Shown here piece by piece: positions 31,548 to 50,246 of a DNA stretch of 64,000 nt; position 1 is the first letter of the stretch, and each line of letters starts with the position of its first letter. The notes below the pieces were generated by a model. The model saw only the letters and a program-made list of their open reading frames with translations. It was not told where the DNA came from and did no database searches. Position numbers and translations under genes: made by a program. Origin of the DNA: Roseococcus sp. SYP-B2431 (GTDB lineage: Bacteria; Pseudomonadota; Alphaproteobacteria; Acetobacterales; Acetobacteraceae); NCBI RefSeq assembly GCF_004336745.1, contig NZ_SJXD01000026.1:310001-374000 (forward strand), in the 5' to 3' direction.

Positions 31548-31592
31548 TGGCGCGCCCTGGTGGATTCGAACCACCGGCCTGAAGCTTAGAAG
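31548..31592. repeat. attL: 45-bp copy of the tRNA-Arg 3' part
   Basis: The sequence is identical to 50202-50246 over 45 bases, from the anticodon loop to the CCA end of tRNA-Arg on the complementary strand, and then diverges. It lacks the 5' half of the tRNA and so is not a functional gene. This is the displaced end created by integration. Confidence 0.93.
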
Positions 31593-31722
31593 TCGTCTGG
31601 GCCAAGCCGACGTTGCGGACCCGGAAGCGACGTAATCCGCCAAATAGCTTGCGTTCCGGCGAGTGGCCCGAATATTTTTCCGACGCGGCCCGCCATAAGG
31701 TGCCATGCGGACCCACTCGCCG

Positions 31723-31744
31723 GGTCCGCTAGGGGTCCGCAAAA
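31723..31744. repeat. Paired GGTCCGC repeats near attL (candidate integrase arm sites)
   Basis: GGTCCGCTAGGGGTCCGCAAAA contains two GGTCCGC units 12 bases apart, about 130 bases inside attL and 29 bases before the integrase ATG. The same arrangement recurs inside attR at 50127-50163. Matching repeats at both ends are typical of arm-type integrase sites; overlap with the int promoter would allow autoregulation. Confidence 0.55.
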
Positions 31745-31772
31745 TCGCTGAGTCGGAAAAGCTTCAGGCCAC

Positions 31773-33143
31773 ATGCCCAGGTTCACAGACCGCTTCATCT
31801 CGTCGTTCGCGCCGATCCCGCCCGCGAAGGATCGGCTTGCCTTCGATACCGAATGCCGCGGCCTTGGCATCAGGGCGTCGTCGAGCGGCAACAAGACGTT
31901 CCTGGTTCAATGGACCGATGCCGCGACGGGCAGGAAGGTCCGCGAACCTCTCGGGGCGTGGGGTGCGCTGACGATCGAAAAGGCACGCGAGGCGGCGAGG
32001 ATCAGGCTCGGCCGCCTGGCCGCGGGCTTCGACCCGAAAGCCGAGCGCGATGCGAAGCGGGCCGAAGATGCACGTCAGCGCGCCGACGCAGAGACGGCCA
32101 GGAAGGAAGCGGCCTTCACGCTCGAAGTGCTCATTTCTGAATGGGAGCGGCTGCACCTCGCCGCCCGCCGGGCCAGCTACGCCACTCGCGCGCCGCGGAC
32201 CCTGCGCCTCGCCTTTGCGGAACATCTGGATAAGCCAGCCTCCCACCTGGCTCACGGGGATGCTCTCGCGGCGATCGATGATCGCGTTGCGGACGGGCAG
32301 CCGAACGCGGCGCGACTGATTCTGACCGCCGGCCGAGCCTGCTATGGCTGGGCCGTGAAGCGGCGTCGGCTCGCCCTCAACCCCTTCGCCGGGTTACCTC
32401 CCATCGAGGGCGCCTACGTCCAGCGAGAGCGGTTCCTGGACGATGCTGAGGTAGGTGAGGTCTGGCGGGCTGCCGGCACCCTCCCCTCGCCCCACGGACC
32501 TTTGGTGAGGTTCCTGCTGCTCACTCTGGCGCGCCGCGATGAAGCGGGTAGCATGGTTTGGGGAGAGCTCACGCCGGATCTCTCGAAATGGGCGCAGCCG
32601 GCAGCGCGAACCAAGAACGGCCGCGCGCATCTGGTCCAACTCTCTCCGCCCGCGCGGGCTATCCTACGTGACCAAATGGGCGCGAAGCCGAAGGGTGATC
32701 TTCCTCCCCTTCCCCCGGCCGATCGCTTGGTCTTCGGCATCAACGGCTCGGACGCCGTTCCACCCCAGCCGATCACGTCGCAGTCGTGGATGAAGCGCAA
32801 CATGGAGAAGGCCATCGGGGCCGAACGGGCAAAGCGGGCCGAGGTGACCGGGGAGGCGCCGGAGCCGATGCCGGCGTGGGTTTTCCATGATTTCCGGCGC
32901 ACGGGCGTCACGTGGCTCGCTGGCGCCGGCTTCCCGCCGCACGTCGCAGACCGGCTGCTGAACCACGTGCAGGGAACGATCCGCGGCGTTGCGGCTATCT
33001 ACCAGCGCAACGAGTTCCTGGCCGAACGGAAGGCTGCTCTCGACGCCTGGGCCGAGCACGTCATGGCGTGCGCTGAGCGTCGGGGGACGCCGGTGAAGGT
33101 CGCGAGCCTCGACCGCGAGAGGAAGCGGCGGCGAGTACCGTGA
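31773..33143 (+). CDS. P4-type tyrosine integrase
   Basis: The 456-residue protein begins with the DUF4102-like arm-binding domain (DRLAFDTECRGLGIRASSSG, LGAWGALTIEKAREAA). A central SAM-like domain follows, then the catalytic domain. All catalytic residues are recognisable: Arg in LTLARRDEAGSM, Lys in TKNGRAHLVQLS, HDFRRTGVTWLAGAG (HxxR), LLNHVQG (His) and AIYQR (Tyr). This class integrates islands and satellites into tRNA 3' ends, matching the tRNA-Arg repeats. The reading frame is intact. Confidence 0.95.
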   Translation: MPRFTDRFISSFAPIPPAKDRLAFDTECRGLGIRASSSGNKTFLVQWTDAATGRKVREPLGAWGALTIEKAREAARIRLGRLAAGFDPKAERDAKRAEDARQRADAETARKEAAFTLEVLISEWERLHLAARRASYATRAPRTLRLAFAEHLDKPASHLAHGDALAAIDDRVADGQPNAARLILTAGRACYGWAVKRRRLALNPFAGLPPIEGAYVQRERFLDDAEVGEVWRAAGTLPSPHGPLVRFLLLTLARRDEAGSMVWGELTPDLSKWAQPAARTKNGRAHLVQLSPPARAILRDQMGAKPKGDLPPLPPADRLVFGINGSDAVPPQPITSQSWMKRNMEKAIGAERAKRAEVTGEAPEPMPAWVFHDFRRTGVTWLAGAGFPPHVADRLLNHVQGTIRGVAAIYQRNEFLAERKAALDAWAEHVMACAERRGTPVKVASLDRERKRRRVP

Positions 33144-33444
33144 GACGCGCCGCGTCGTGGCGGGGATCGGAGCCTCTAGGCTGCGAGCCGCTGGGCGGGG
33201 ATGGCGTGCATCCCTCGGCGGCGGGGTATCGGAGGTGGTGGCGGGATGTGCGACCGGGGTGATCCGGCGCATTCCTCTTAGATAGAGAGCTCGGCGGGGG
33301 GGGCCTCGCATTATCACGAAGCATGCCAGGGCAACCCAAAGGACGCTTGAGGTTTCTTCGAAGATGCCATCATAGTGGTGGCACGAGGCCCGGGAGGGCC
33401 CGGGCGGCGCCTGAGGGAGCCCCCCGGGACGGGCCAGGGAGCCG
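33144..33444. other. Intergenic region after the integrase (no gene seen)
   Basis: The 301 bases show no supported gene. A GC-rich dyad, GGCCCGGGAGGGCCCGG near 33388-33404, is the only clear structure and could end integrase transcription, though no T tract follows. Composition is a mixture of G-runs and short AT-rich stretches. Confidence 0.45.
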
Positions 33445-33678
33445 ATGATGCGAGTCTATCAGAAGAGGATGATCGCGTCGTTCGACGAGAACGGCGCGCT
33501 GGTTCGTCGCCGCCGCCGCGATACTTGGCTGGGGGCGTTCGCGGACGCTTTTGCCCCTTCCCGCGGTCCAGCGCCAGTTATGCCCCCGGGGGCGGCGAGT
33601 GCTCTCGGCTGGATCCGCACGGGGAACGCCATGAAAAGGTCGATGGCCAAGCGCGTAACCAAAAAGTATGACTGGTAG
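33445..33678 (+). CDS. Small basic hypothetical protein (77 aa)
   Basis: The 77-residue protein is strongly basic at both ends (RRRRRDTW near residue 22, MKRSMAKRVTKKYDW at the end), with a Pro/Ala-rich middle. A GGGAGCC element precedes two ATG codons (33445, 33448). It overlaps the next gene by 11 bases, supporting expression. No family recognised; such small basic proteins are common in islands. Confidence 0.45.
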   Translation: MMRVYQKRMIASFDENGALVRRRRRDTWLGAFADAFAPSRGPAPVMPPGAASALGWIRTGNAMKRSMAKRVTKKYDW

Positions 33679-34120
33679 GGAAGCAACGCCAGCGCGACCG
33701 ACTAGGGCGCCGGACCTGAATCTCCCGCCGATTGAGCCAGATCTGCTCAGGCCGAATGAAGCGGCCCCGCCGACCAAGGAGTCGGTGAGGGAAATGCGCG
33801 CCTACGCCTTCGCCGGGCCCATGCCTGATCCCCTGACGATGAGGGGGTATGACGCTGTCGTTCCCGGCTCAGCGAAAACGATTATCGACAACTTCACCGC
33901 CGATGCTCAGCACGTCCGAGACATGGAGCGCCGGTCTCTAGAGCAGGATGCTTGGGAGGGTAAGGCCTCCCGCCTGACCGCTATAGTTGTGCCTGTTTCA
34001 GGGGTCGCCTTGGCGGTTTTTGCTGGCTGGCTCCTGAATTCGCCAGGAGCCTTCGTTGGCGGTTCGGTTGCAGCTCTGGGTGGCCCCTTAATGGCCGCAA
34101 TTCTGAAACGATCTGAATAG
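33668..34120 (+). CDS. DUF2335-like membrane protein
   Basis: The 150-residue protein has a soluble N-terminal region. The DUF2335-like motif YDAVVPGSAKTIIDNFTADAQHVRDMERRSLEQDAWEGKASRL follows. Two close hydrophobic segments near the C-terminus (IVVPVSGVALAVFAGWLL and FVGGSVAALGGPLMAAIL) form a membrane hairpin. DUF2335 proteins are small inner-membrane proteins of unknown function, frequent in mobile elements. A terminator follows 16 bases after the stop. Confidence 0.75.
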   Translation: MTGREATPARPTRAPDLNLPPIEPDLLRPNEAAPPTKESVREMRAYAFAGPMPDPLTMRGYDAVVPGSAKTIIDNFTADAQHVRDMERRSLEQDAWEGKASRLTAIVVPVSGVALAVFAGWLLNSPGAFVGGSVAALGGPLMAAILKRSE

Positions 34121-34135
34121 CCACCCGCCACGACG

Positions 34136-34167: not shown

Positions 34168-34224
34168 ACAAAAAAAACTTACCAATGTTTGAAGTATATG
34201 CGCTCAACGGCTGTAGGGCAGCGC

Positions 34225-34461
34225 ATGACCCGATTTTACTTCCACGTGTACGATGACGAAATCACCATGGACAGCGAGGGGGAGTCGTTCTCATCCGCTT
34301 CTCTCGCTCGGTCCCACGCGATCGAAGCGATCCGGTGCATGGCGGCCGCGAACGTCTCCGCCGGCCATCTGACGGGAAGTCATCGGATCGAGATTTCGGA
34401 AGCCGGTGTCGAAGGGGTCCAGACCGTCCGATTCGATGAGGCCATCACGATCAGGCCCTAG
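34225..34461 (+). CDS. DUF6894 family small protein
   Basis: The 78-residue product begins MTRFYFHVYDDEITMDSEGE and contains ASLARSHAIEAIRCMAA, the usual DUF6894 pattern in which a beta hairpin precedes a helix. A C-terminal strand is near VRFDEAITI. The function of the family is unknown; these proteins are abundant in Rhizobiales and Acetobacteraceae. The start at 34225 was chosen by family alignment over an upstream in-frame ATG at 34189. A second member lies convergent to it 46 bases downstream. Confidence 0.7.
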   Translation: MTRFYFHVYDDEITMDSEGESFSSASLARSHAIEAIRCMAAANVSAGHLTGSHRIEISEAGVEGVQTVRFDEAITIRP

Positions 34462-34507: not shown

Positions 34508-34822
34508 CTACTCGGCCACTGCCTGCGCGGCGAGCCGGGCTGCCCGAGCGGCATCGCGGCGCGCTTGCCGCTCTTCAAGCGCCTGACGCATTTCCTCCGT
34601 GAAGGCCGGGACGATGGTGGCATGGTGATAAACGTGAGCGCCGTCCTCGTCGCGGACGGTGCACTCGATCCGCAGGTACTCGCTCGGGTCGCGCTCCCGG
34701 ACACGGCAATACATCTCGTCGATGGCAAGCTTCCGGGCGGCGGCTCGGTCGTCGAGTTCGCGGCCGTGCCGGTCCTCCGTGGTGGCGCCGTTGATCGACC
34801 AGTCGAAGAAGTAGCGCGGCAT
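34508..34822 (-). CDS. DUF6894 family protein with helical C-terminal extension
   Basis: The 104-residue protein starts MPRYFFDWSINGATTEDRHGRELDDRAAARKLAIDEMYC, the DUF6894 pattern, followed by a beta strand pair. A charged helix of about 35 residues (TEEMRQALEERQARRDAARAARLAAQ) is not found in the shorter neighbour. It is oriented against the 34225 gene. The start at 34822 was chosen because upstream in-frame sequence lacks family similarity. Confidence 0.7.
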   Translation of the reverse strand: MPRYFFDWSINGATTEDRHGRELDDRAAARKLAIDEMYCRVRERDPSEYLRIECTVRDEDGAHVYHHATIVPAFTEEMRQALEERQARRDAARAARLAAQAVAE

Positions 34823-36067: not shown

Positions 36068-36301
36068 CTACCGGAACATCAGAGCCATGACGCCGACGCC
36101 GGCAAGCAGAACCAAGCACCCCAACAGAGCTACCCAGCCGTCGCCTTTGGGCTCGCCTTCCTCCTCCATGCTGTTCTTCAGCACCCTGTCGGGCTCGACC
36201 GGCCCTTCGCCCTCACGGTGGGGGAGAAGCTGGACGTCCATGCACCACTCTGTCGGCCGCTTGGTGAGGGTCTGGGTATACCGATCGTGTTCCAAAGGCA
36301 T
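36068..36301 (-). CDS. Small hypothetical membrane protein (77 aa)
   Basis: The 77-residue frame encodes a hydrophilic N-terminal part and one C-terminal membrane segment (GWVALLGCLVLLAGVGVMALMF). This layout, a tail anchor, is common in small island proteins. No family recognised. The upstream 259 bases (35809-36067) hold nothing identifiable. Existence as a gene is moderately likely. Confidence 0.4.
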   Translation of the reverse strand: MPLEHDRYTQTLTKRPTEWCMDVQLLPHREGEGPVEPDRVLKNSMEEEGEPKGDGWVALLGCLVLLAGVGVMALMFR

Positions 36302-37156: not shown

Positions 37157-37423
37157 TCAGCCACGGTCCTTCCTCAGCCTGACGCCAGGCCCGTCGCCGT
37201 TGCCGGGGACGAAGACGACTCCCGCAGATTCTAAGGCTGCGCGCAGAGCGGAAACCGTACGCCGCTGCGGCGCCCCTTGCCCCAGTTCCATTCGCGCGAT
37301 TGTCCGCTTGGGTATCTCGCTGGCCTGCGCCAGTTGCTCCTGGGACCAATTCACAAGCGCCCGAGCAGCTCGGAGCTGCGCCGCCGTTATGGCATCAACG
37401 ATGACATTTTCGATTGCACTCAT
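37157..37423 (-). CDS. XRE-type HTH transcriptional regulator
   Basis: The 88-residue protein has a single Cro/C1 helix-turn-helix: ITAAQLRAARALVNWSQEQLAQASEIPKRTIARMELG, then TVSALRAALESAGVVFV. It is preceded by an N-terminal extension of about 12 residues. It is the likely regulator of the divergent plus-strand genes from 37536 and of the lipoprotein/secreted pair. No toxin partner was seen. Confidence 0.85.
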   Translation of the reverse strand: MSAIENVIVDAITAAQLRAARALVNWSQEQLAQASEIPKRTIARMELGQGAPQRRTVSALRAALESAGVVFVPGNGDGPGVRLRKDRG

Positions 37424-37535
37424 GCGAACACCATGTCATCAATAGTGCCATCTCGCAAGCGAGATGACGAACGGACGGGATGTTGCGAGCACCCCGCCCG
37501 CCCTGACCATAACCCCACTGTGGAGCAACAGGATC

Positions 37536-37949
37536 ATGGCTACCCGAGATAATAGCACCCGCCGCGCTGCTGCCGAGGGCGCTGCTTTCGCGACGCCCTC
37601 CGCCGGAATGCGCCGCCGCCGGCGCGAGGCGATCGAAGCCCTGATTGACCGGGCCATTGCCGCGCTGGACGTGCTCGACGGCGACTGCGACCTGGAGGAG
37701 GAGCAGGACTGCTGCGAAGCGGCGGACGACGACCTCTCCCGCTTTCCCTGCCGGCAGAGGCAGAACGACCACGGCGCAGGCACGCTGGAGGATGCCGAGC
37801 CGGACGAAGATGACCTCGGCGCCAACGAAGACGAGTTCCCCTCCCGCTCGCTCGCCGCGACCAACTGGCACTGCCGCAACGGGAAAGACTACATCTACGG
37901 CCACGATCGCCTCCTCAGCTCCTATTCCGGTCGGGGGACGGCGGCATGA
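37536..37949 (+). CDS. Acidic hypothetical protein (137 aa)
   Basis: The product has a basic N-terminal part and an acidic, cysteine-containing middle (DGDCDLEEEQDCCEAADDD, then EDAEPDEDDLGANEDE). It ends near NWHCRNGKDYIYGHDRL. It overlaps the next gene by four bases (ATGA), the first of a run of coupled genes to 38927. The ATG at 37536 was chosen as the first after the divergent XRE gene's promoter region. No family recognised. Confidence 0.5.
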   Translation: MATRDNSTRRAAAEGAAFATPSAGMRRRRREAIEALIDRAIAALDVLDGDCDLEEEQDCCEAADDDLSRFPCRQRQNDHGAGTLEDAEPDEDDLGANEDEFPSRSLAATNWHCRNGKDYIYGHDRLLSSYSGRGTAA

Positions 37950-38296
37950 GCGCGACCCGCCGCGGCATCCTGGCCGCCGCCGCCGCCGCCGCCTCGCCGC
38001 TCGCCGGCTCGGCCATCGCTGCGGAGCCGCATCCCGACGCCGAGCTGATCGCCAAATGCGACCGCTATCTCGCGATCCGGAACGAGTACAATTCCGGCCC
38101 CGAGCCCACGAGCCAGGAGGAGGACGATCGTCAGTATTTCGCCTTGCGTGCGGCGGAGGAGGCGTTCCTGAATACGGCGCCCCGGACACTCCATGGCCTT
38201 CGGGTCAAGGCCTCGGCAGCCCAGAGTGCCGGACTCGACGAGCATGCTTGGCAGGTCGTTGAGGACTTGCTGCGGATGTCGGGAGGGCCGGTCTGA
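37946..38296 (+). CDS. Exported hypothetical protein with Tat-like signal, paralogue 1
   Basis: The 116-residue protein starts MSATRRGILAAAAAAASPLAGSAIAAEPHPDAEL, a twin-arginine-containing signal followed by helical mature sequence. Its signal/mature boundary and the motif PHPDAELIAKC are shared with the next gene, so the two are paralogues. Overlaps on both sides show operon coupling. Function unknown. Confidence 0.6.
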   Translation: MSATRRGILAAAAAAASPLAGSAIAAEPHPDAELIAKCDRYLAIRNEYNSGPEPTSQEEDDRQYFALRAAEEAFLNTAPRTLHGLRVKASAAQSAGLDEHAWQVVEDLLRMSGGPV

Positions 38297-38718
38297 TGGC
38301 GGTCCGTCGCAACATCCTGTTCGGCGCCGCCGCCGTCATGCTGCTGGAGCGAGCGGCGGCGGCCCCTGTCGCGCCGCATCCGGATGCCGAGCTGATTGCG
38401 CTCTGCGCCGAGCACCGCGAGCTGGAGCGCCGCAAAATCGCGGAGTGGGACTCCCGCCCGCGGAATATCACCTTCGAGGCGGAGGCGGCGCTGGATGCCG
38501 CCACCACTGACCCGATGATCGGCCGGCAGGGCGAGATTGCCGAGCGCCTGGCAGAGCTGAAAGCCACAACGGCAGAAGGCCTGCTGGCGTGGATCACGAT
38601 GGTCGCGACCTTCGACGCAGACCTGTCGGAGTTCGACCCGGACGACGATTTCAGCGGCCGAATGCTCGCCTGCATCTGCCGCGACGCCATTGCCCTGCTT
38701 GCGGGGAGCGCGGCATGA
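38296..38718 (+). CDS. Exported hypothetical protein, paralogue 2
   Basis: The 140-residue product starts MAVRRNILFGAAAVMLLERAAAAPVAPHPDAELIALC, again twin-arginine plus PHPDAELI, then a helical mature region. It begins in a TGATG overlap with paralogue 1. Such exported helical proteins recur in Acetobacteraceae mobile elements without known role. Confidence 0.6.
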   Translation: MAVRRNILFGAAAVMLLERAAAAPVAPHPDAELIALCAEHRELERRKIAEWDSRPRNITFEAEAALDAATTDPMIGRQGEIAERLAELKATTAEGLLAWITMVATFDADLSEFDPDDDFSGRMLACICRDAIALLAGSAA

Positions 38719-38927
38719 GAGTCGCGACCCCGAAGCGGACCTCCATGAAGGAGATGAACGCGCTGGAGACGATCGTCTTCCGCGTGCTGTTCGCGGTGGA
38801 ATGCGAGCGGGCGTGCGCGCGTCAGGCGGTGGACGTGCCGTTCGTGCGCGCCATGGCGACGCTGGAGAAGCATGGCGGATTTCTCCGCGAGCCTCCGCCC
38901 GCTTCTGCTGGCGGCACGGCCTCGTGA
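38715..38927 (+). CDS. Small hypothetical protein (70 aa)
   Basis: Starting MRVATPKRTSMKEMNALETIVF, this 70-residue helical protein overlaps the preceding stop by four bases. A middle helix FRVLFAVECERACARQ contains two cysteines. No domain recognised. Supported by coupling to the two exported paralogues. Confidence 0.45.
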   Translation: MRVATPKRTSMKEMNALETIVFRVLFAVECERACARQAVDVPFVRAMATLEKHGGFLREPPPASAGGTAS

Positions 38928-39038
38928 GCCGGTATTCTGCAATCGACGGGGCTAGGTTTGGCCGCCGAACGCCTGGCTCTCCGCGCCGGGCTGCCCCGTC
39001 GACTTCCACCTGCGGATGGCGCTGCGGAGGCGTGTGTT

Positions 39039-40007: not shown

Positions 40008-40118
40008 CGACCAGTGAAGCGGTGCTTTCACCAGTGAAGGCGCTGGCTCACTGGTTATCCGACTTCCCATTGTCCCTTCAGGCGGCGCGTGTCGCGCCGC
40101 TCTACGAAAGGGCAGTCC

Positions 40119-40346
40119 ATGCAGCGCCATTCTTCCCCGCACCTGACCTCCGAGATGCTGGCCGAGCGTCAGCACGTTTCTCTGCGCACCCTCGAGCGTT
40201 GGCGCGGCGACGGATCGGGCCCCCGCTTTCTGCGTGTCGGTCCGCGCAAGGTCATCTATCCGATCGCCGAGGTGGAACGGTGGGAAGCGGAGCGCATGTA
40301 CGCCAGCCGCGCCGCCGAACTCTCCGGCCGGTCGAGGGCGGCCTGA
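40119..40346 (+). CDS. AlpA/excisionase-type HTH regulator
   Basis: The 75-residue protein contains LTSEMLAERQHVSLRTLERWRGDGSGPRFLRVGPRKVIYPIAEVERWE, a MerR-like HTH typical of AlpA and excisionases. In P4-like islands AlpA controls integrase and excision. It precedes the replication genes. The ATG at 40119 lies close to the conserved region; an upstream in-frame codon at 40089 is less likely. Confidence 0.85.
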   Translation: MQRHSSPHLTSEMLAERQHVSLRTLERWRGDGSGPRFLRVGPRKVIYPIAEVERWEAERMYASRAAELSGRSRAA

Positions 40347-40512
40347 TGCGCGCGCCCCTCGCCAGCGTCTCGCCCTTCAGCCGCCAGAAGTAGAAACCCG
40401 GCACGCGCTGGAGCGGTGCGGGGCTGAAGCCTGAGACGGACTACTACGACACCCGTCACATAGCAGCAGCGACCGCATATTTCCAGTGCCGTGCATGTCC
40501 GAGGAGAAGGAC

Positions 40513-41879: not shown

Positions 41880-43267
41880 TGGACGGCCTCGATCCCGAAG
41901 CTCGTTTTGCGGCGGCCGGCGCACGGCGCGAGCCCTTCGCAGTGAATAGCCCGCCACCAGAGGCTCCGCAGTTCTCCGACGACGCCCTCGCGCTCGCCTT
42001 CAGCGATCGACACAATGGGCAACTCCTCTACGTCCCTCAATGGGCATCGTGGTTGCGCTGGGACGGCTGCCGCTGGGCTAGGGACGAAACCCTTGCCGTC
42101 TTCGACCTAGCGCGCGCGCTGTGCCGCGAGCAGGCTCAAATCGCGGAAGACCAGAAGGAGGACGGCGCCAGTCGCATCGCGTCGGCTAGTACGGTCGCCG
42201 CGGTCGAGCGCATGGCCCGTTCCGATCCACGCCATGCACGGCCTGCTGCGGCATTCGATGCCGACGAATGGCTGCTGAACACGCCCGGCGGTATCGTGGA
42301 CCTGACCACCGGCGCCACGCGACCGGCGAGGAAGTCGGAGCTCGTCACCAAGGTCGCGTCGGTCGCCCCTCAGGGAGAGTGCCTCCGCTTCCTGAAGTTC
42401 CTCTCGGAGATCGTCCAGGAGGACGAGGACCTCATCGCCTATCTGCAGCGATGGGCCGGGTACCTGCTGACCGGCTCCACCCGCGAGCATGCCTTCCTGG
42501 TGATCGTCGGGCCGGGCGGAAACGGCAAGACGCTGCTGGTGAACATCCTCGCCTATCTCCTCGGGGATTATGCCGCGACGGCTCCGATGGAGACGTTCAT
42601 GGCGAGCGCGGGCGACCGGCACCCAACCGACCTGGCCGGCCTGCGCGGCGCGCGGCTCGTCATTGCCCAGGAGACCGAGGCCGGGCGCGCCCTGGCCGAG
42701 GCCAAGATCAAGACACTGACAGGCGGAGATCCGGTGAGCGCGCGCTTCATGCGCGGCGATTTCTTCACCTATCGGCCGAACTTCAAACTGGTGATGGTCG
42801 GCAACCACCGCCCCGTCATCCGCAATCCCGATGACGCCCTTCGTCGCAGGCTTCATCTCCTTCCGCTCACCTTCAAGCCGGCGCAGCCGGACGCGAAGCT
42901 GTTCGACATCCTGAAGGCCGAGGGGCCGGGAATTCTGCGGTGGGCCATTGAGGGCTGCCTCGCTTGGCAACAGGCGGGCCTTGGGATGCCGATGGCCGTC
43001 AAGGCCGCGACGGACGGCTACTTCGAAGACCAGGATCTCCTGGCCCAGTGGCTGTCCGAACGATGTGAGGTGAAGAACGGCAACGAAACCTCTTCCTCGG
43101 CGCTGTTCCGCGACTGGTCGACCTGGTGCGACCAGCGCGGAGAGGCGGCCGGCACCGGCAAACGCTTCTCTTCCGCGCTCGAGCGGCACTTTGCGAAGAA
43201 GCGCTCCAACGCCGGGATGATCTTTGCCGGCGTGCGACTTCTCCCCTCTTCGACGGGGGCGTTCTGA
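41879..43267 (+). CDS. Phage/plasmid P4/D5-family primase-helicase (SF3)
   Basis: The 462-residue protein begins with a D5_N-like region (YVPQWASWLRWDGCRWARDE, WLLNTPGGIVDLTTG). The SF3 helicase core follows, with Walker A GPGGNGKTLLVN near residue 217, Walker B-like LVIAQETE and motif C KLVMVGNHRP. A winged-helix C-terminus completes it. It unwinds DNA at the element's origin. The candidate palindromic origin lies 28 bases after its stop. Confidence 0.9.
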   Translation: MDGLDPEARFAAAGARREPFAVNSPPPEAPQFSDDALALAFSDRHNGQLLYVPQWASWLRWDGCRWARDETLAVFDLARALCREQAQIAEDQKEDGASRIASASTVAAVERMARSDPRHARPAAAFDADEWLLNTPGGIVDLTTGATRPARKSELVTKVASVAPQGECLRFLKFLSEIVQEDEDLIAYLQRWAGYLLTGSTREHAFLVIVGPGGNGKTLLVNILAYLLGDYAATAPMETFMASAGDRHPTDLAGLRGARLVIAQETEAGRALAEAKIKTLTGGDPVSARFMRGDFFTYRPNFKLVMVGNHRPVIRNPDDALRRRLHLLPLTFKPAQPDAKLFDILKAEGPGILRWAIEGCLAWQQAGLGMPMAVKAATDGYFEDQDLLAQWLSERCEVKNGNETSSSALFRDWSTWCDQRGEAAGTGKRFSSALERHFAKKRSNAGMIFAGVRLLPSSTGAF

Positions 43268-43295: not shown

Positions 43296-43387
43296 GTGTA
43301 GGGTTGTGCAGGGTTTTCTATTTCACCCGTTCACGTGTGTGTGTGCGCGTGAACGGCTGAAAAGAGAAACCCTGCACAACCCTACAC
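43296..43387. repeat. 92-nt near-perfect palindrome downstream of the helicase
   Basis: The outer arms (43296-43316 and 43367-43387) are perfect 21-base complements beginning GTGTAGGGTTGTGCAGGG. The inner parts continue with a few mismatches to a centre at about 43341, including paired CCGTTCACG/CGTGAACGG. A GTGTGTGTGTGC run occupies the centre. It lies within the 266-base gap 43268-43533 that contains no other feature. Candidate replication origin or packaging site; no T tract, so not a simple terminator. Confidence 0.85.
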
Positions 43388-43533: not shown

Positions 43534-44160
43534 ATGAACTTCGAAGACGCCCTCGCGCGGAAGGAAGGGCAGCCCCGATCGGGCCATCTCTTCCAGCAGC
43601 TGATCGGGCTGCCTGACAGAGCCCGCGCGAAACTCGCCGCCATGCGCAGTCGCCGGAAGGCGACGGCAGCCCGCGCCAAGCTGAAAGGCGCCGCGACAGC
43701 TCGCCGGATCGAGCCGACGCTGCGCGGGCCGAAAGCCGCGGACACCCCGCCGCCCACCTACACGGCCGAGAGCTTCGCCCGCCTGGCGCCGCTGGCCGGA
43801 GCGCAATGGTCCGCGCTGTGGGAGGACAAGGCCGCAGCCGGTCCGAACCCCGCCATCCGCGACGAGCGCGCGCGCATGCTGGCGATCCTCGGATCGCCAG
43901 AGGCCGCGAAGCATCCGCCGCTGGCCGCTCACCTGGCCTTCGCCACCGACCTCAATCCCGCGATCGCCATCAACCTGCTCAGCACCGCAGCGCCGCTCGC
44001 GATGCCCGAGCCCCGCATCAGCCTGTCGGAACGCATGGCCGGCGAGACGCAGATCCGCCTCGGCAGCGAACCGCCGCAGCCCGCAGCGGGAACACCGGAA
44101 GCTCTCGCCGCCCGCGTCCTCAACTCCACGAACCGCGCGCGACCGCACGCGGCAGCCTGA
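43534..44160 (+). CDS. Scaffold-like phage protein, unknown
   Basis: The 208-residue protein starts MNFEDALARKEGQPRSGH, preceded by a GGAG element. Its middle, AIRDERARMLAILGSPEAAKHPPLAAHLAFATDLNPAIAINLLSTAA, resembles the C-terminal scaffold-like tail of phage head-maturation proteases, but there is no protease domain. The rest is Ala/Arg-rich and probably flexible. A scaffold or capsid-size role would fit a satellite, but this is inference from one motif. Confidence 0.5.
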   Translation: MNFEDALARKEGQPRSGHLFQQLIGLPDRARAKLAAMRSRRKATAARAKLKGAATARRIEPTLRGPKAADTPPPTYTAESFARLAPLAGAQWSALWEDKAAAGPNPAIRDERARMLAILGSPEAAKHPPLAAHLAFATDLNPAIAINLLSTAAPLAMPEPRISLSERMAGETQIRLGSEPPQPAAGTPEALAARVLNSTNRARPHAAA

Positions 44161-44171
44161 AAGGAACTGAC

Positions 44172-44345
44172 ATGCAATCCGACCCCATCCACTCCCGCGA
44201 GCCCGCCGACCCGATCGACGGCGCCATGACGGAGGCTCAGCGCCAACGCTGGGCCCACCTCGAATCCCCGGTCGCGAAGGTCGGGCTGCAGGAGTGGCAG
44301 CGCTCCCGCGCCGCCGCCCTGTCGCACCCCCACCAGACCCATTGA
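44172..44345 (+). CDS. Small hypothetical protein (57 aa)
   Basis: This short gene lies between two others, with AAGGA upstream of ATG 44172. The product is polar (MQSDPIHSREPADPIDGAMTEAQ...), probably unstructured at its N-terminus, with a helical second half. It fits the gap exactly, ending 11 bases before the next gene. Confidence 0.5.
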   Translation: MQSDPIHSREPADPIDGAMTEAQRQRWAHLESPVAKVGLQEWQRSRAAALSHPHQTH

Positions 44346-44356
44346 GGAGCACCAAC

Positions 44357-44989
44357 ATGCAGTACGCCGACGTCATGCAGCTTCGCCCCGAGGCGCAGGA
44401 TAGTGCCTCGCTCGCGGGCGCCATCCTCCGTGCCGAGAGGGCGCGGGTGGAGAGCCTAAACCGCGTGAAGGACCTGGCCGGCCAGCGCTCGGCCGCGCTC
44501 CTCACCTCGGACGATGCCGAGCTCCAGGCCATGGAGCAGCAGGCCGCAGATGCCCAGCGCGCAGCCGATCGCATCGCAGCCCTCATCGAGGCCATGCGCG
44601 CCGAGATGGAGGTGGCCAGCGAGCGCGAGAAGAAGGAGCAGGCGCTCCATCTGCTGGAGGGATCCAACCGTGTCGCCACGGCCTTCCTGACCTGGTGGCG
44701 GGAGGAGTACCCGAAGCACGCCGAGGCGATCCGTGCCGGGCTCCTGTTGGAGCAGCAGGCGCATTCCGCACGGGCCGTTGCGCAGGCTGCGTTGGAGAGC
44801 ACGGGTCTCAACCGCAAGTCGCTGATCTACACCTCGGCGGAGATCACGGGCTCCGGGTCGCTCTGGTCCCTGCACATGGGCGCGGCATTTCAGCTGCCCT
44901 CGCTCGACGGAACCGTGTGGCCTCGCGCGAGCAAGCACTTCGAGCCTTACTGGTTCGTCACCGATCTTCGTCGGATGGACATCCGATGA
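44357..44989 (+). CDS. Coiled-coil hypothetical protein (210 aa)
   Basis: The 210-residue protein has a long coiled coil (AERARVESLNRVKDLAGQRSAALL through EVASEREKKEQALHLLEG). A C-terminal beta-rich part follows, with SLIYTSAEITGSGSLWSLHMGAAF and a WPRASKHFEPYWFVTDLR ending. GAGGAG precedes the ATG. It overlaps the following gene by four bases. The architecture, a stalk plus globular end, would fit a virion or tail accessory protein, but no family was recognised. Confidence 0.55.
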   Translation: MQYADVMQLRPEAQDSASLAGAILRAERARVESLNRVKDLAGQRSAALLTSDDAELQAMEQQAADAQRAADRIAALIEAMRAEMEVASEREKKEQALHLLEGSNRVATAFLTWWREEYPKHAEAIRAGLLLEQQAHSARAVAQAALESTGLNRKSLIYTSAEITGSGSLWSLHMGAAFQLPSLDGTVWPRASKHFEPYWFVTDLRRMDIR

Positions 44990-45183
44990 AGAGCCCCGCG
45001 CCGACGCAGCGCTCTGACCAGGGCACGCAGCCCGCCGTCCCCACCATGCCCGACGCCACCCCGGAGCCCAGCGCGGAGGCGCACCGCGTCCCGCGACGCC
45101 TTGGCCACCGCCTCCGCGCGCCTCGCCCCGACGAGGTGACCGCGGCCAACCCCGAGACCCCCGAAACGAAGGAGACCCCCTGA
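44986..45183 (+). CDS. Small hypothetical proline-rich protein (65 aa)
   Basis: Starts in an ATGA overlap with the preceding stop and ends two bases before the tail-fibre gene. The product is Pro/Thr/Ala-rich and probably disordered (TPEPSAEAHRVPRRLG). Supported by tight packing only. Confidence 0.45.
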   Translation: MKSPAPTQRSDQGTQPAVPTMPDATPEPSAEAHRVPRRLGHRLRAPRPDEVTAANPETPETKETP

Positions 45184-45185
45184 CC

Positions 45186-45734
45186 ATGCAACGCATCGCC
45201 AACGGGACGCAGGTCGCGTCCATGCCCACCCCGGCCGCCCCGGTCGGCACGCCCGGCTACGGAACCAGTGGCGATCCCGGCGCCGGCCTGCTGGGCTCCA
45301 TCTTCGGCGCGGACGATTTCAACCGCCACCAGGAAGAGCTGATGTCCTGGCTCGCCGCGGCCGGGATCACGCCGGACGGCAACAACAACGCGCAGGTGCT
45401 CGAAGCGGCGCACAAGATCTTCGGCGGCGGCGGCACGATGGGCGGCAACGGGTGGCAGTACCTGCCCGACGGGATGCTGCTCCAGTGGGGATCCGGCGCC
45501 ACCGTTACGGGCGGCGTGGCCGTCACGTTCCCCATCAGCTTCGGAGCCTCGCCGCCTATCGTCCTGCTCAGCGAGAGCGGCGCCGGCAGCTGGGTCCCGG
45601 CCAGCAACTGGACGATCTACGGCCGAAATTCTGTCGCTGCCGGGAGCATGTTCGTGAACAGCGTCACCTGGAACGGCACGGGGTTCGTGAACGGCAACGG
45701 CAACTTCAACTGGCTCGCCCTGGGAGTAGCATAA
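45186..45734 (+). CDS. Tail-fibre protein with gp53-like C-terminal domain
   Basis: The 182-residue protein has an N-terminal Pro/Gly linker (TPAAPVGTPGYGTSGDPG) and a short helical part (FNRHQEELMSWLAAAGITPDGN). The C-terminal domain carries the gp53-like signature WQYLPDGMLLQWGSGATVTGGVAVTFPISFGA, then aromatic/Asn-rich strands ending FNWLALGVA. Such domains form the receptor-binding tip of tail fibres. It is much shorter than a full phage fibre and has no trunk region, so it may attach to helper tails or be a fibre tip module. The next gene is its likely partner. Confidence 0.8.
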   Translation: MQRIANGTQVASMPTPAAPVGTPGYGTSGDPGAGLLGSIFGADDFNRHQEELMSWLAAAGITPDGNNNAQVLEAAHKIFGGGGTMGGNGWQYLPDGMLLQWGSGATVTGGVAVTFPISFGASPPIVLLSESGAGSWVPASNWTIYGRNSVAAGSMFVNSVTWNGTGFVNGNGNFNWLALGVA

Positions 45735-45736
45735 TC

Positions 45737-46153
45737 ATGTTCTACAGTCCCTCCCTTCGCGCCTTCTTCATCTCCTCGCCCGGCTCCGATGCCGTCGAGA
45801 TCACGGGCGCGGACCACGCAGCGCTTCTCGCTGGGCAGACCGCCGGCAAGGAAATCGTCCCCGGCGAAGACGGCCATCCCGTCTTGCAGGACCCGCAGGC
45901 TCCCACGGCCGCGCCGCCGCCCCTCACGGCTCGGCAGCTCCGGCTTGGACTCCTCGGCCGCGGCATCACGCCGGCAATGGTCAATGAGGCGATCACCGAG
46001 CTTCCCGACGACCAGCAGGCCGTCGCGGAAATCGAGTGGGAGTACGCGACCCAGTACCTCCGCTCGCATCCGCTCATCGACCAGATCGGAGCGGCCTTCA
46101 GCCTGACGCCCGAGCAGATCGATGGGGCCTGGGCCGAGGCAGCGGCGCTCTGA
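45737..46153 (+). CDS. Probable tail-fibre assembly/partner protein
   Basis: This 138-residue protein begins MFYSPSLRAFFISSPGSDAVEITGADHAALLAGQTAGKEIV, a pattern like tail-fibre assembly chaperones. A helical C-terminal half follows (RQLRLGLLGRGITPAMVNEAITELPDDQQAVAEIEWEY), seen in DUF4376-like phage proteins. It lies two bases after the fibre gene. It probably aids fibre folding or attachment. Confidence 0.7.
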   Translation: MFYSPSLRAFFISSPGSDAVEITGADHAALLAGQTAGKEIVPGEDGHPVLQDPQAPTAAPPPLTARQLRLGLLGRGITPAMVNEAITELPDDQQAVAEIEWEYATQYLRSHPLIDQIGAAFSLTPEQIDGAWAEAAAL

Positions 46154-46332: not shown

Positions 46333-47103
46333 GTGGTGACAACGAGCATGGCCGAATTCGCGCGATTGCAGTCGGTCTCCCGCAAGACGGCCTACGAGTG
46401 GAAAGCCAAGGGATACCTGGTCTTCCTGGGCGGCGCCGTGGACGTGGAGCGGTCCAATAGCCGCCTGGCCGCGGCGGGCCTGTCGCGCCTGAAGCCTGTC
46501 ACCCTGCGGCGGCAAGCGTCACGTCAGGTGCGGCAGGGTGACGCTGGCGCCGTCACCTCAGGGGAGGCGCTGCTCCGGCACGCTCATCAGTTCCCGAAAA
46601 TGCTCACGGTGTCGGTCTTCGCCGCCGGCGTCTGGGACCTCGTGCTTGAGCTGCTGGCCCACCTTCCGATGGAAACGGTACGCCCCATCGTCGAGCGGGT
46701 GGTTGCTATGAATCGCAGGGCCGCGGTTGAGATTGCCCTGATCGATGGTGAGGGGCCGCCCGAGGGCTTTGCGAGCTGGGCCGATCACCCGTGGCTGACC
46801 CGGCCGGCCCTGACCGAGGCCGAGTGGCAGGAGCTGGAGGAGGAGCACTGGGCGCGCGGCGCTGGAGGGGGGGCAGTGATCGCCTACCCCCTGATCCGGC
46901 ACATCACCGGCGAGAACCCCACCCGGCGCGTCGTGTGGACTGTCACCGCGCCGGGGCCTAGGCGCACGGAGACCTTCGCGCCAGAGGTCGACGGTGGCGT
47001 CGCGGCGGGATGGCGGGCAGCCGCAGCGCGCCTCAGGACCGAGGCCGAGGCGAAGCACTGGGTCGCGATTTTCGATGAGGAGGAGTGCCCGCCCCGGCTT
47101 TGA
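46333..47103 (+). CDS. Terminase small subunit-like DNA-binding protein
   Basis: The 256-residue protein opens with an HTH of the Nu1/terminase-small type (MAEFARLQSVSRKTAYEWKAKGYLVFLGGAVDVERSNSRLAAAGL). A linker, a helical middle (VSVFAAGVWDLVLELLAHLPMETVRPIVERVVAM) and a variable C-terminal part follow. Start choice is open: GTG 46333, GTG 46336 or ATG 46348. Three GGTGAC repeats lie just upstream (46319-46340). A packaging-redirecting role would suit a satellite; no large terminase was found. Confidence 0.65.
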   Translation: MVTTSMAEFARLQSVSRKTAYEWKAKGYLVFLGGAVDVERSNSRLAAAGLSRLKPVTLRRQASRQVRQGDAGAVTSGEALLRHAHQFPKMLTVSVFAAGVWDLVLELLAHLPMETVRPIVERVVAMNRRAAVEIALIDGEGPPEGFASWADHPWLTRPALTEAEWQELEEEHWARGAGGGAVIAYPLIRHITGENPTRRVVWTVTAPGPRRTETFAPEVDGGVAAGWRAAAARLRTEAEAKHWVAIFDEEECPPRL

Positions 47104-47281
47104 TGTAGCAGCCCAGATGGTGGAATGGCTGCGGCCGCCACCAGCATCAGGAAACGGTCCCCACAATACGCCGCTCCCCGCATCATGAGATGCATGCGTA
47201 GTAAAGGAACAATTTGATGGAAAGAATTCCGACAACGATCTAGCGTCCCGTTTGCAAAAATAGTGGTTGGAGGAACGGCCA

Positions 47282-48412
47282 GTGGATGAATTTCGTGAAA
47301 AGTTGCGGACCTTCGCTCAGCGCATGGTCGCGCTGGCGCCTCGCTGCACGAATGAGGAAAGCACCAAACTCTTCCTGATCCTCCCGTTCCTGAACTTCCT
47401 CGGTTACGACGACAGGAATCCCGACGAGGTTTGCCCTGAGCACGGGTGCGACTTCAGCGAGAAATATAAGAACCGCGTGGACTTTGCGATCCTCCGTGGT
47501 GAGGCGCCTGTCATTGCACTGGAGTGCAAGACCCTCGGGATGGCTCTTCGAGACGAGCGCGGCCAGCTGCGGTCATACTTCAATGCCGCGCCCACGGTGA
47601 AAATGGGCATCATAGCGGACGGCCTCGTCTACGAGTTTTATGCAGACTCCGACGAGCCCAATATGATGGATCAGAGCGCGTTCCTTTCCCTCGATCTCCG
47701 AGAGATTGCGAAGGGAAAGATCGAGGACTCCGTTGAGGAGGGTCTGCGCGGCCTGCAGAAAAGCACCTTCGATCCCGAGAACATTGGAGCGGAAGCGAAG
47801 CGCAAGCTCATCTTCCAAAACATCGTCCTCCAGCTCGGTGCGCTCGCGCAGGATCCGAGCGAGCCGTTCGTCAGGATGCTTCTTCAGAAGGCTGGGGTTA
47901 GCCACGTTCGAGCCAAGTCTCTCGATGAGTATCGCGACCTGACGAAGTCCGCATTCCGGGAATTCGTTAATCAGCGCATTCTGCGGAGGCTCGATCTGCC
48001 CACCAAGGATGACGCGGAGAAGGCAGCGGGCCCTTCGCAGGAGGTCCCTGTGGCCGTGGCCGCGGTGGCGCCGACGGATGCGGTCGAGACGACCGCCGCC
48101 GAACTTCAAGTCATGCAATATGTGAGGAAGCGGCTGGCTTTTCTCGTGAAGGAAGAGCGCCTCTACGACGAAATTTCGAACATCGAATTCAAGGACTACA
48201 AGGGGAAGATGGTCGCGTTCTATCGCCGCGAGCGCGCAGGCCGACTGTTTGATTTTCGTGAAGGCAAAGACGCTTCCATGCACTTCGACTTCGGTGCGGC
48301 GGGCGGAGAGCTCGCCGTCAGCAAGCTCTCCGAGATCGATACGCCGCTTCTGGCCGTCTACCGGCAACGCGTGGAGGAGCTGGCGCCTGCGGAAAAGCGT
48401 GCGGTGGCATAG
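47282..48412 (+). CDS. Stand-alone HsdR N-terminal-type nuclease
   Basis: The 376-residue protein has the HSDR_N_2 PD-(D/E)XK domain (SEKYKNRVDFAILRGEAPVIALECKTLG: Asp then ExK). A helical middle and a separate C-terminal beta domain follow (RLAFLVKEERLYDEISNIEFKDYKGKMVAFYRR). No helicase is present, unlike true HsdR. GTG 47282 was chosen because GGAGG lies eight bases upstream; the frame opens at a TTG at 47267. It is probably defence cargo near the island's right end. Confidence 0.8.
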   Translation: MDEFREKLRTFAQRMVALAPRCTNEESTKLFLILPFLNFLGYDDRNPDEVCPEHGCDFSEKYKNRVDFAILRGEAPVIALECKTLGMALRDERGQLRSYFNAAPTVKMGIIADGLVYEFYADSDEPNMMDQSAFLSLDLREIAKGKIEDSVEEGLRGLQKSTFDPENIGAEAKRKLIFQNIVLQLGALAQDPSEPFVRMLLQKAGVSHVRAKSLDEYRDLTKSAFREFVNQRILRRLDLPTKDDAEKAAGPSQEVPVAVAAVAPTDAVETTAAELQVMQYVRKRLAFLVKEERLYDEISNIEFKDYKGKMVAFYRRERAGRLFDFREGKDASMHFDFGAAGGELAVSKLSEIDTPLLAVYRQRVEELAPAEKRAVA

Positions 48413-48447: not shown

Positions 48448-48981
48448 ATGAGTCAGACCTTATCCCCAGCCGAGGCGGTGAAGGCCGCGACTGAGGCTCG
48501 CAAGCCCTGGGACGAGACAGCCCGGAAGGGCGAGGAGATCGCCTCGAACTTCGTCCGGGACGGCCTCAAGATGGTGGTGCTGCTGAACTCGGGCGCAGCC
48601 TTGGCAATGCCCGCGGTGACGGCCTTCATCGGCTTTGATGCGGCCGCCAAGGCAGCCCTAGTCTATCCCATGGGCATCTTCATCGTTGGCGTGATCGCTG
48701 GCCTGCTGGCGTCGGTGACGGCCTACTTGGCTATGTGCTTCCACATCGAAGCATCGCGAGCAGACGCCGTTCTGACGGAGCATCAAGCGCTCCAGTTCTT
48801 CAGAGGGACCTTCGATACGACAGCATCGAAGGATGGGACCGCCACCCGCGCTGCGACCAGAGATCGATGGTGGAAGGGGTACAGCCGCCTGCGCGGGCTG
48901 GGGCTGATCCTGTTCGGAGCGGCCCTTCTTGCTTTTGTCGGTGGCGCCCTCTGGGTGTTTCTGCTCGCGATGCGGAAGTGA
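48448..48981 (+). CDS. Three-segment membrane protein, unknown
   Basis: The 177-residue protein has hydrophobic segments near residues 42-62, 72-96 and 152-175, separated by a polar loop with ASRADAVLTEHQALQFFRGTF. The first 35 residues are helical and charged. It follows the nuclease by 35 bases and is probably co-transcribed; nuclease plus membrane protein pairs are seen in defence loci. No family recognised. Confidence 0.6.
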   Translation: MSQTLSPAEAVKAATEARKPWDETARKGEEIASNFVRDGLKMVVLLNSGAALAMPAVTAFIGFDAAAKAALVYPMGIFIVGVIAGLLASVTAYLAMCFHIEASRADAVLTEHQALQFFRGTFDTTASKDGTATRAATRDRWWKGYSRLRGLGLILFGAALLAFVGGALWVFLLAMRK

Positions 48982-49048: not shown

Positions 49049-49795
49049 TCAGTCCACACGTCCGTCGTTCACGATGCGCCGAAGCTTGAAGCGCTCGTCG
49101 GGCGTGACCAACACGGAGGTCGTGAACAGCGTCGGATGGATCTCTTGGGACCATCGTCGCGGGTGGAAGACGTGCTCCAGCGCCGCCAAGGCCGGGTTCA
49201 GGCGTCGCCCCGACCAGCTAAGATGCTCCTTGAGCTGGAAGACGTTGGTGAGCGCGGGATCTCCGTCGAGCCAGATGCGGGCGATCTCGACGGCATCGCT
49301 TCGGGTGTCGAAATCCATCGCCACTCGATCAAAAGCGAGGAATAACGCGCCAGTGGGGCGGTATTGCAGGATCGCGGCGCCCATCGCGGTCGTGGTGCGG
49401 ACATACCCGTGATGCGCGAGCTCGGCGACGGCGTCCTCCAAGGCGGTCTTGGTGTCACCGGGAAACGCTTCCTGAAGCGACTCGAATGACACGGCGCGCA
49501 TCATTCCGGTGTCATTCATGCTGAGCGTGTGGAAAGCCACTTGCAGAGCCAGAGGGTCGAGCACGATCTGCCCGTTTATGCGAGCCCCCAATCGCTCCAG
49601 TCGCTCGGAATGGTCGTTGGTCGCCTCGGCGATCTCCCGCTGGAAGCGCTCGAGATCTTGCTCGAATTGGCTGGGGTGCGTGTAGCCATAGAGATGGGCC
49701 AGGGCCGCTGTGATTGGGGTGAATTGGGCGGCAGCCTCGATCAAGCGCCTCGTGACAGCCCGACCTTCGTCGCGCTCAGGATAGGAAATCGTCAT
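49049..49795 (-). CDS. Hypothetical protein (248 aa)
   Basis: Opposite orientation to the nuclease unit. The 248-residue soluble protein includes RLIEAAAQFTPITAALAHLYGYTHPSQFEQDLERF, a middle DTKTALEDAVAELAHHGYVRTTTAMGAAIL that looks like a winged-helix, and a C-terminal FTTSVLVTPDERFKLRRIVNDGRVD. No recognised family. It converges with the membrane-protein gene across a 67-base gap. Confidence 0.55.
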   Translation of the reverse strand: MTISYPERDEGRAVTRRLIEAAAQFTPITAALAHLYGYTHPSQFEQDLERFQREIAEATNDHSERLERLGARINGQIVLDPLALQVAFHTLSMNDTGMMRAVSFESLQEAFPGDTKTALEDAVAELAHHGYVRTTTAMGAAILQYRPTGALFLAFDRVAMDFDTRSDAVEIARIWLDGDPALTNVFQLKEHLSWSGRRLNPALAALEHVFHPRRWSQEIHPTLFTTSVLVTPDERFKLRRIVNDGRVD

Positions 49796-49946
49796 CGGGC
49801 TCCCCTTCTACTTGATGGCCGCCAACCTGCCGCGCAAACCAAATCAGACGGGCTACGAATACTGGCCGAGCAGCGCCGCCAGGTCTGCCCGAAATCGCCC
49901 GCCAGTCCTTGTGACCTCAGCCGCATCGTGGCCCGCCGGAGGCCGG

Positions 49947-50113
49947 TCAGGCGCGCGCTCGCGGCATTTGCACCACGTGTCCCGCCGGCCCCGCCTCGCC
50001 CATCTGCCGCTGCACCTCACTGGCCACCTTGTCGGCCGCGGCGAGCAGCACGGCGTCGGCCGAGTGGATGTAGCGCCGGGTGATGCCGCCGCCCTAGTGG
50101 CCGGCCGCGTGGC
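49947..50113 (-). pseudogene. Remnant of a second tyrosine integrase (C-terminal tip)
   Basis: On the minus strand the translation HAAGH*GGGITRRYIHSADA continues to a stop at 49947. This matches the last conserved box of phage-type integrases (His, then the TRRY nucleophile region, followed by ADKVA and a short tail). A TAG at 50094-50096 interrupts it and no upstream catalytic domain exists. It sits inside the island, 89 bases from the tRNA-Arg attachment copy. Confidence 0.75.
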
Positions 50114-50126
50114 ACTGATTCCATGA

Positions 50127-50163
50127 GGTCCGCTGGGGGTCCGCAAACCTGAGGTCCGCAAAA
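50127..50163. repeat. Three GGTCCGC repeats near attR (candidate integrase arm sites)
   Basis: GGTCCGC occurs at 50127, 50138 and 50153, the last two followed by AAA/AAAA, in the same arrangement as the pair inside attL. This supports use by the same integrase. Confidence 0.55.
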
Positions 50164-50201
50164 CATTCGGGCCAAATCATCGCATAAGATATTGAAAAAT
50201 C

Positions 50202-50246
50202 TGGCGCGCCCTGGTGGATTCGAACCACCGGCCTGAAGCTTAGAAG
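50202..50246. repeat. attR: 45-bp repeat within tRNA-Arg
   Basis: Identical to 31548-31592 over 45 bases. It covers the tRNA from the anticodon loop to CCA, so crossover in this segment regenerates a full tRNA on the right side. Confidence 0.93.

Follow-up and report, generated by a model that had tools for sequence, protein, structure and literature searches.

What is an integrated element that carries a tail fibre gene and a phage-type scaffold homologue beside its replication genes, when no capsid, portal or large terminase is recognised in it? This question is raised by positions 31548-50246 of a 64,000-nucleotide window (the whole stretch of DNA analysed) in contig NZ_SJXD01000026.1 (C26) of Roseococcus sp. 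SYP-B2431, a member of the Acetobacteraceae whose genome measures 4.7 Mb at 99% completeness. The element is 18,699 bp long with a GC content of 67%, and an initial annotation, made from the letters alone, had described it as a phage satellite with its own tail-fibre genes. Capsid and terminase homologues were sought among its hypothetical genes and none was found in the 25 of 27 accepted genes that were scanned; the closest relative found over the whole gene order was another island and not a full-length prophage. We conclude that the element is very probably an integrated phage satellite. In what follows, G, C and L numbers denote genomes, contigs and loci of our set.

Gene content of the element

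The element is bounded by an exact 45-bp direct repeat (attachment sites attL, 31548-31592, and attR, 50202-50246). The right copy is the 3′ part of a tRNA-Arg(TCT) gene (50202-50278, minus strand), of which attL is a 45-bp copy; the runner-up exact direct repeat in 29001-53000 measured only 18 bp. Within these borders, 27 open reading frames (ORFs) were accepted as genes, and 25 of them (all but 40486-40722 and 36068-36301) were scanned against Pfam, PHROGs or both. The core, entirely on the plus strand, comprises a tyrosine integrase (31773-33143; PF13356, PF00589, phrog_1), an AlpA-like regulator or excisionase (40089-40346; phrog_66, E 8.5e-7; Pfam HTH_17 at only 20.1 bits, below the cut-off of 27), a Toprim primase (40719-41879; PF13362, PF23639, phrog_510) and a superfamily 3 (SF3), D5-type helicase (41876-43267; PF08706, phrog_6088, E 1.8e-127). 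Primase and helicase are two separate, overlapping genes.

Among the ORFs scanned, portal, capsid, large terminase, sheath and tube families gave no match, nor did the Psu, delta and Sid families or lysis genes. In these respects, the list of parts in the initial annotation stood: att repeats, integrase, AlpA regulator, primase and helicase were all recovered, as were the gp53-like fibre tip, its fibre partner and the scaffold-like protein described below.

The last three belong to an operon of six plus-strand genes (43534-46153) separated by 11, 11, -4, 2 and 2 bases. In order, it encodes a scaffold homologue (43534-44160), a small ORF placed by position (44172-44345), a coil protein (44357-44989; coiled-coil by eye), a second small ORF (44986-45183) that overlaps the preceding gene by 4 bases, a short tail fibre (45186-45734) and a tail fibre assembly chaperone (45737-46153). 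Neither small ORF had a PHROG match; the coil protein had no significant family, its tape-measure match being weak (E 0.026).

A sibling island with the same gene order

A sibling island was found in the Rubritepida sp. metagenome-assembled genome RYN_445 (JAQGHY010000180.1, L085; G165 contig C260, same genus, 89% complete). It is 17,847 bp long and has exact 47-bp att copies at tRNA-Arg(CCT). Integrase, AlpA, small ORF, primase, helicase, scaffold, coil, fibre, chaperone and a helix-turn-helix (HTH) gene follow one another in the same order as in the window. Identity between the islands amounted to 62% for the integrase (sibling L047:9204), 80% for AlpA, 57% for the small ORF (40486-40722, plus strand, in the window; a relative also occurs in L075) and 54% for the primase; it was 57 and 72% for two pieces of the helicase, 55% for the scaffold, 32% for the coil protein and 54% for the HTH protein. 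The fibre, chaperone and scaffold frames are open in the sibling. The sibling differs in having a membrane protein (58%) near the integrase and a 164-aa gene between coil and fibre, and relatives of the window's Xre and HSDR_N genes were not found in it. Among the loci searched, the coil family occurred only in the two islands and in L075, a distant island that also has relatives of other genes of the element; the fibre was not found there.

The spacing of scaffold and fibre sets both islands apart. Matches were collected from 397 genomes of the family, giving 39 scaffold places and 58 of 61 fibre places (second matches in G247, G207 and G284 were omitted). These formed 24 same-contig pairs, of which G381 (opposite strands, 2.9 Mb) and G284 (reverse order, 37 kb) were set aside. 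The scaffold-to-fibre gap was 1029 bp in the window and 1227 bp in the sibling, compared with 12,104-17,708 bp on 20 other contigs. On the two of these contigs that were read, G142 and G071, the intervening genes are head and tail genes.

The scaffold homologue

The product of 43534-44160 matched phrog_6382 (E 9e-17) over its C-terminal half; PHROGs lists this family as of unknown function. Its relatives in the family are free-standing proteins, about 200 aa long where the frame could be read; they are acidic in their middle part and alike at the C-terminus. Twelve loci outside the own genome were considered, and L017 was dropped as a chance match that reads like GMP synthase by eye. In 10 of the 11 remaining prophage loci, all from the same bacterial family, a head protease homologue, encoded on the same strand, immediately precedes the relative, and in nine loci the next gene encodes a decoration homologue. 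In the 11th locus, L009 (G059:C179:20650-23955), the head protease homologue lies on the opposite side of the scaffold-like gene.

The setting is best seen in the G142 prophage, where profiles identified terminase large subunit (phrog_15), portal (PF05136), protease (PF01343), phrog_6382 (E 1.6e-31), decoration protein (PF02924), capsid (PF03864), sheath (phrog_165) and baseplate (phrog_6). The place behind the protease is the scaffold position in lambda-type heads. The window protein also matched head maturation proteases weakly (phrog_53/17040). Because of this position and the link to protease profiles, we infer that the family is a scaffold family. A protease assignment for 43534-44160 itself was rejected, as the relatives with readable frames are separate proteins of about 200 aa beside the protease. 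The scaffold had no match in phage records.

The tail fibre and its chaperone

The fibre consists of an N-terminal docking domain common to phage fibres (about residues 1-82; phrog_1833, residues 2-81) and a gp53-like tip (PF21882, Gp53-like_C, residues 93-180). The chaperone matched phrog_188, tail fibre assembly (E 1.8e-11), and phrog_6034. Between window and sibling, the docks are 68% and the chaperone C-termini 69% identical; the tips and the chaperone N-termini do not match each other, and the tips fall into different families, the window's being of gp53 type and the sibling's of phrog_863 type. In G207 (L039), one phage is similar to the window fibre tip (30%) as well as to the N-terminus of the window chaperone (41%). 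For the sibling, the counterpart is the viral contig L002, which carries sheath and baseplate genes: identity was 63% over 57 residues with the tip and 44% over 84 with the chaperone N-terminus. Tip and chaperone N-terminus thus look like an exchanged cassette, judging from one phage per island.

A profile of the window, sibling and viral-contig fibres matched gp24, a myophage Pam3 fibre of solved structure (E 1.3e-9), as did the sibling fibre alone (E 9.8e-7, residues 55-274; PDB 7YFW/7YPX). In Pam3, the fibre docks to the baseplate by its N-terminal helices and binds the receptor by its distal domains; its chaperone pairs a conserved C-domain with a variable N-domain that binds the tip (PMC9608196). 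In five prophages (L056, L057, L059, L060 and L061), reading of the translations by eye placed the fibre genes in the baseplate neighbourhood, and in G071 the gene preceding the fibre encodes a Mu gp48 homologue (PF10076).

Two further claims about these proteins were rejected. In a tree, the docks of the two fibres did not resolve as a clade of satellites (support in 31% of 200 bootstrap trees), and the chaperone C-terminus is not specific to satellites, with viral contigs reaching 62% identity. In phage records, the fibre matched three Bordetella phages (PV870137.1, PV564983.1 and PP230461.1) by the dock alone; it is the same dock (50.6% over 79 residues) and is unannotated or hypothetical in these records. 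A fibre search of the genome_contigs set gave no match.

Proposed mechanism and expected helper

Building on these gene assignments, we propose that the satellite redirects the capsid of a helper with a lambda-type head and a contractile tail, and contributes a receptor-binding fibre of its own; we lean towards this full mechanism, with less assurance than towards the satellite identity itself. The helper would be of a type present as prophages in the family, and its infection would trigger excision, with induction of the satellite through the AlpA-like regulator. The satellite would then replicate from an iteron origin. Its scaffold homologue, a candidate capsid-size redirector, would bind the capsid protein through the C-terminus shared with phages and give smaller heads, as CpmB does for SaPI1. 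Once folded by the chaperone, the short fibre would use the shared N-terminal domain to dock on the baseplate of the helper, and the satellite's receptor-binding tip would then appear on some of the particles or on all of them. An alteration of host range by the satellite fibre, as the initial annotation had suggested, is plausible.

Whether the two islands stand for a class of capsid-less satellites, setting head size by a scaffold of helper lineage and tropism by a fibre with a tip/chaperone cassette and a kept dock, we regard as an even question. In the usual view, a satellite takes the host range of the helper whose tail it steals. An island holding just the parts that may govern both head size and receptor choice would separate its host range from that of the helper, and, if this is true, satellite and helper from one cell could go to different hosts. 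It would also provide a signature for searches, namely a phage scaffold gene that is separated from a fibre-chaperone pair by about 1 kb rather than 12-18 kb and stands beside a primase-helicase-iteron core.

A number of results weigh against this proposal. Islands bearing the operon were found in only 2 of the 397 family genomes, and the operon occurred in 1 of 90 loci with an SF3 helicase, which is the sibling itself. A clean empty site was not found, the left flank being non-collinear in same-genus relatives. The scaffold pair, the HTH protein and the integrase gave no match as queries against viral contigs. Homology of the scaffold lies mainly in its C-terminal half, and its capsid binding is predicted from position.

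The fibre contributes further points of this kind. Its dock is not specific to satellites, that of the window being 70% identical to the dock of a phage in G247. The window fibre alone, searched against solved structures, returned no fibre, only antibody chains at E of at least 0.076; the window is linked to Pam3 solely via the dock that it has in common with the sibling. As to the cassette, further phages, in G107, G284 and G049, match the window tip and not the window chaperone, the sibling chaperone N-terminus also matches G403 (L034, 40%) where the tip does not, and a tblastn search with the 71-residue N-terminus alone did not list L002.

The helper raises a similar difficulty. Neither the phrog_165 sheath profile nor Phage_cap_E (PF03864) matched in the own genome, and neither matched in the sibling genome, which is 89% complete. 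The same held for G154 and G305, and both profiles matched in the other five genomes asked. On these two profiles, a resident helper of matching type was rejected; the co-resident helper that the initial annotation had envisaged found no counterpart, and the neighbouring prophage is of the Phage_capsid_4 type. The expected helper would come from outside the own genome.

Alternative explanations

The main rival to an integrated satellite that supplies parts to its helper is poisoning of helper assembly, which we consider unlikely. Here, scaffold and fibre subunits would be dominant-negative spoilers of the particles of a helper or an invader. Tai proteins of phage-inducible chromosomal islands (PICIs), prophages and P4-like satellites are described as blocking tail assembly (PMC11364771), and the scaffold and fibre of the element share their phage-facing part with phages and differ elsewhere; an endonuclease-like gene also lies nearby. 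A defence subunit, however, would need no complete receptor tip and no chaperone, and the two islands keep both.

Less probable still is that fibre and scaffold are passenger genes without a role in the transfer of a replicative island. Only two examples are known from our set, and virion genes appear to come and go among such islands, L086 and L051 carrying an internal virion protein and L075 a terminase small subunit (TerS). In the window, however, the genes form one tight operon, their order is kept in a diverged island, and the fibre has a phage-type dock.

If the element were instead a decayed prophage, its capsid, terminase and tail genes would have been deleted and the scaffold and fibre left at the edges of the gap, and in prophages these two genes do border the missing stretch. 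We hold this to be very improbable because the gene order, the open frames and, very nearly, the size of the gap recur in the sibling, which is diverged and sits at a different tRNA-Arg. The gap also holds the coil gene, which is confined to these islands and L075 among the loci searched, and no structural remnant was found. For the latter comparison, 188 script-called ORF products from 10 phage or prophage stretches were used, and they matched the islands only at the scaffold, the fibre and, in the sibling, the chaperone; the script called some of the 188 on the wrong strand (the G247 fibre, for example), so a missed gene is possible.

An autonomous phage with capsid and packaging proteins diverged past recognition can be dismissed almost outright, since its proteins would have to lie in the ORFs without family (39039-40007, 44357-44989 and 46333-47103) or in longer overlapping ORFs of other frames that exist outside the scanned set, but the largest ORF left unassigned in the accepted set of 27 encodes 322 aa and the scaffold is the only head or packaging match in PHROGs or Pfam.

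Comparison with known satellites

An integrated phage satellite, the reading retained here, can be compared with several described systems. Gram-negative PICIs of the EcCICFT073 type resemble the element in their integrase, AlpA and primase-replicase and in having no recognised capsid or large terminase; their origin, like the candidate origin of the element, has two sets of iterons around a centre of lower GC content (PMC6092414). Integrase, replication module and transcriptional regulator stand in the conserved order of PICIs in the element, and two putative iteron sets surround an AT-rich region at 43296-43387. In contrast, PICIs are given as about 12-15 kb in size and as lacking phage structural genes (PMC6092414), whereas the element and its sibling measure 18.7 and 17.8 kb and the element carries a fibre, a chaperone and a phage-type scaffold. 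Capsid-forming PICIs have their own major capsid, portal and terminase, and prophages have capsid, packaging and tail-tube genes or remnants of them; neither set was recognised among the scanned ORFs of the element.

The scaffold finds its closest parallel in CpmB of SaPI1, a satellite scaffold with a C-terminal capsid-binding part shared with the phage and an N-terminal part of its own (PMC5644958). The helper is another one, and capsid binding in the element is a prediction. SaPI1 is not known to carry a fibre of its own. P4-like satellites share integrase, AlpA-type regulator and SF3 helicase with the element (PMC8628076). Differences from them are that primase and helicase are separate genes in the element and that Psu, Sid and delta are missing among the ORFs scanned, with a phage-type scaffold in place of Sid. 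The helper P2 has a contractile tail, as would the helper expected here.

MiniFlayer, a Streptomyces satellite, is like the element in encoding a tail fibre; in contrast, it has its own capsid and terminases, no lysogeny module and no recognised primase (PMC10690885). Its fibres adsorb to the neck of the helper (PMC10690885), whereas the fibre of the element has a baseplate-type dock and comes without a recognised capsid gene. Charybdis elements, known from a preprint, are likewise small, with trimeric fibre-like proteins and without terminase, portal or protease; their authors discuss a supply of tail parts and capsid theft and leave their nature open (PMC12324425). They are smaller than 7.4 kb and marine, with a likely archaeal host and no known replication gene (PMC12324425); the element, by contrast, is integrated, measures 18.7 kb and carries both replication genes and a phage-type scaffold. 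Pam3 gp24/gp25 offers a short fibre with an N-terminal dock and a two-domain chaperone (PMC9608196); its match is with the fibre of the sibling. Pam3 gp24 is the phage's own fibre, and the tip in the window belongs to the gp53 C-terminal type. For Streptococcus satellites, a tail fibre is named only as a search keyword (PMC6813308). MiniFlayer and the Charybdis elements are the nearest cases in open papers, and a search of mainly open literature gave no account of a satellite that is integrated, lacks a capsid and brings a fibre, a chaperone and a scaffold of its own.

The candidate replication origin

Past the helicase stop codon, direct repeats are arranged as an inverted pair (43296-43335 and 43348-43387) with 88% complementarity. 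These paired iterons face each other, and the 53 nt between the innermost repeats have a GC content of 49%, compared with 67% for the island. This region (43296-43387) is a candidate replication origin. A similar arrangement was found in other SF3 loci. The sample comprised 93 items (90 loci, the window and two of G154), 87 of which had enough length, and the 250 bases around the gene end were scored against 244 places drawn at random from the same loci, the threshold being their 99th percentile. A strong inverted repeat was present at the helicase gene end in 67 of the 87, a count that is not one of independent cases, since many loci are related and several groups are near-identical. The median score was 15.5 at gene ends, compared with 8.0 at random places, and dinucleotide shuffles gave a median of 7 and a maximum of 12.5. 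The repeat words vary among SF3 elements and the facing symmetry is constant; facing direct-repeat pairs look like a general origin design of SF3 replicons, phage contigs included.

Searching plasmids with the helicase returned 403 records; the best among those listed reached 50%, plus one in the 60-80% band. In G154 (C1:1259101-1266926), two SF3 helicase matches lie about 6 kb apart. The second is partial and interrupted by a TGA, as would be expected of two tandem islands of which one had decayed.

Insertion site, accessory genes and neighbouring loci

To the right of the element, the flank is collinear with four same-genus genomes. The alignment ends at the 3′ end of the tRNA (50202) in three of the four and 19 bases beyond it (50183) in G153. 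Three relatives with sequence past the tRNA (L208, L209 and L211) had no integrase adjoining it, by eye; for the fourth relative, L210, the contig goes no further than the tRNA.

Behind the operon lies the HTH gene (46333-47103, plus strand), with relatives in the sibling, L075 and L077. The initial annotation had called its product terminase-small-like, a label that found no support: it had no Pfam match, and its only PHROG match was to phrog_66 at E 0.32. In L075 (G305), an island next to tRNA-Phe, a real TerS (L075:13532-14047; phrog_57, E 1e-29) is a separate gene right after the HTH gene. In the sibling HTH gene (L048:4314-5096), an in-frame TGA occurs near residue 186, the tblastn identity reading across this stop; the relatives in L075 and L077 also end near residue 186, and the window gene encodes 256 aa. 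The latter is possibly a fusion of two small genes.

Other genes of the element include, toward attL, an accessory membrane protein (DUF2335; 33668-34120, plus) and two accessory DUF6894 proteins (34189-34461, plus, and 34508-34822, minus), all assigned by profile matches. An Xre-type HTH regulator (37157-37423, minus; PF01381, E 1.3e-9) has relatives in L075 and L077. It is followed by early genes without significant family (37464-40007, plus: 37464-37949, 37946-38296, 38296-38718 and 39039-40007). Toward attR lie an HSDR_N/endonuclease-like protein that may be cargo (47267-48412, plus; PF04313; phrog_4225, E 1.1e-60), a membrane protein (48448-48981, plus; 58% identity at L047:12511 in the sibling) and a protein adjoining attR (49049-49795, minus; no significant family). 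PADLOC gave no match for 10 proteins of the element, the HSDR_N-type protein among them, and a scan for sigma70 promoters and terminators gave nothing exceeding shuffled sequence.

In two further loci, L086 (8953-9555; Neoroseomonas oryzicola) and L051 (10908-11978; G154), an internal virion protein (phrog_418; E 6.6e-18 and 3.3e-11, respectively) is encoded upstream of a helicase that is 65-67% identical to that of the window. No other virion match was found in nine further ORFs of L086 and three further ORFs of L051. These may represent another satellite type that brings one virion part.

A prophage lies 22 kb upstream of attL, and window positions 1-9392 hold its early genes; by eye, it occupies about 279-319 kb of contig C26 (L071, L072). 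Its genes include a gpA-type terminase, a portal (phrog_21), a tape-measure protein and a Phage_capsid_4 capsid, and it is taken as non-contractile because the sheath profile gave no match. Between this prophage and the satellite, at 16650-23332, the window contains type I restriction-modification genes with HsdM, HsdS and HsdR domains.

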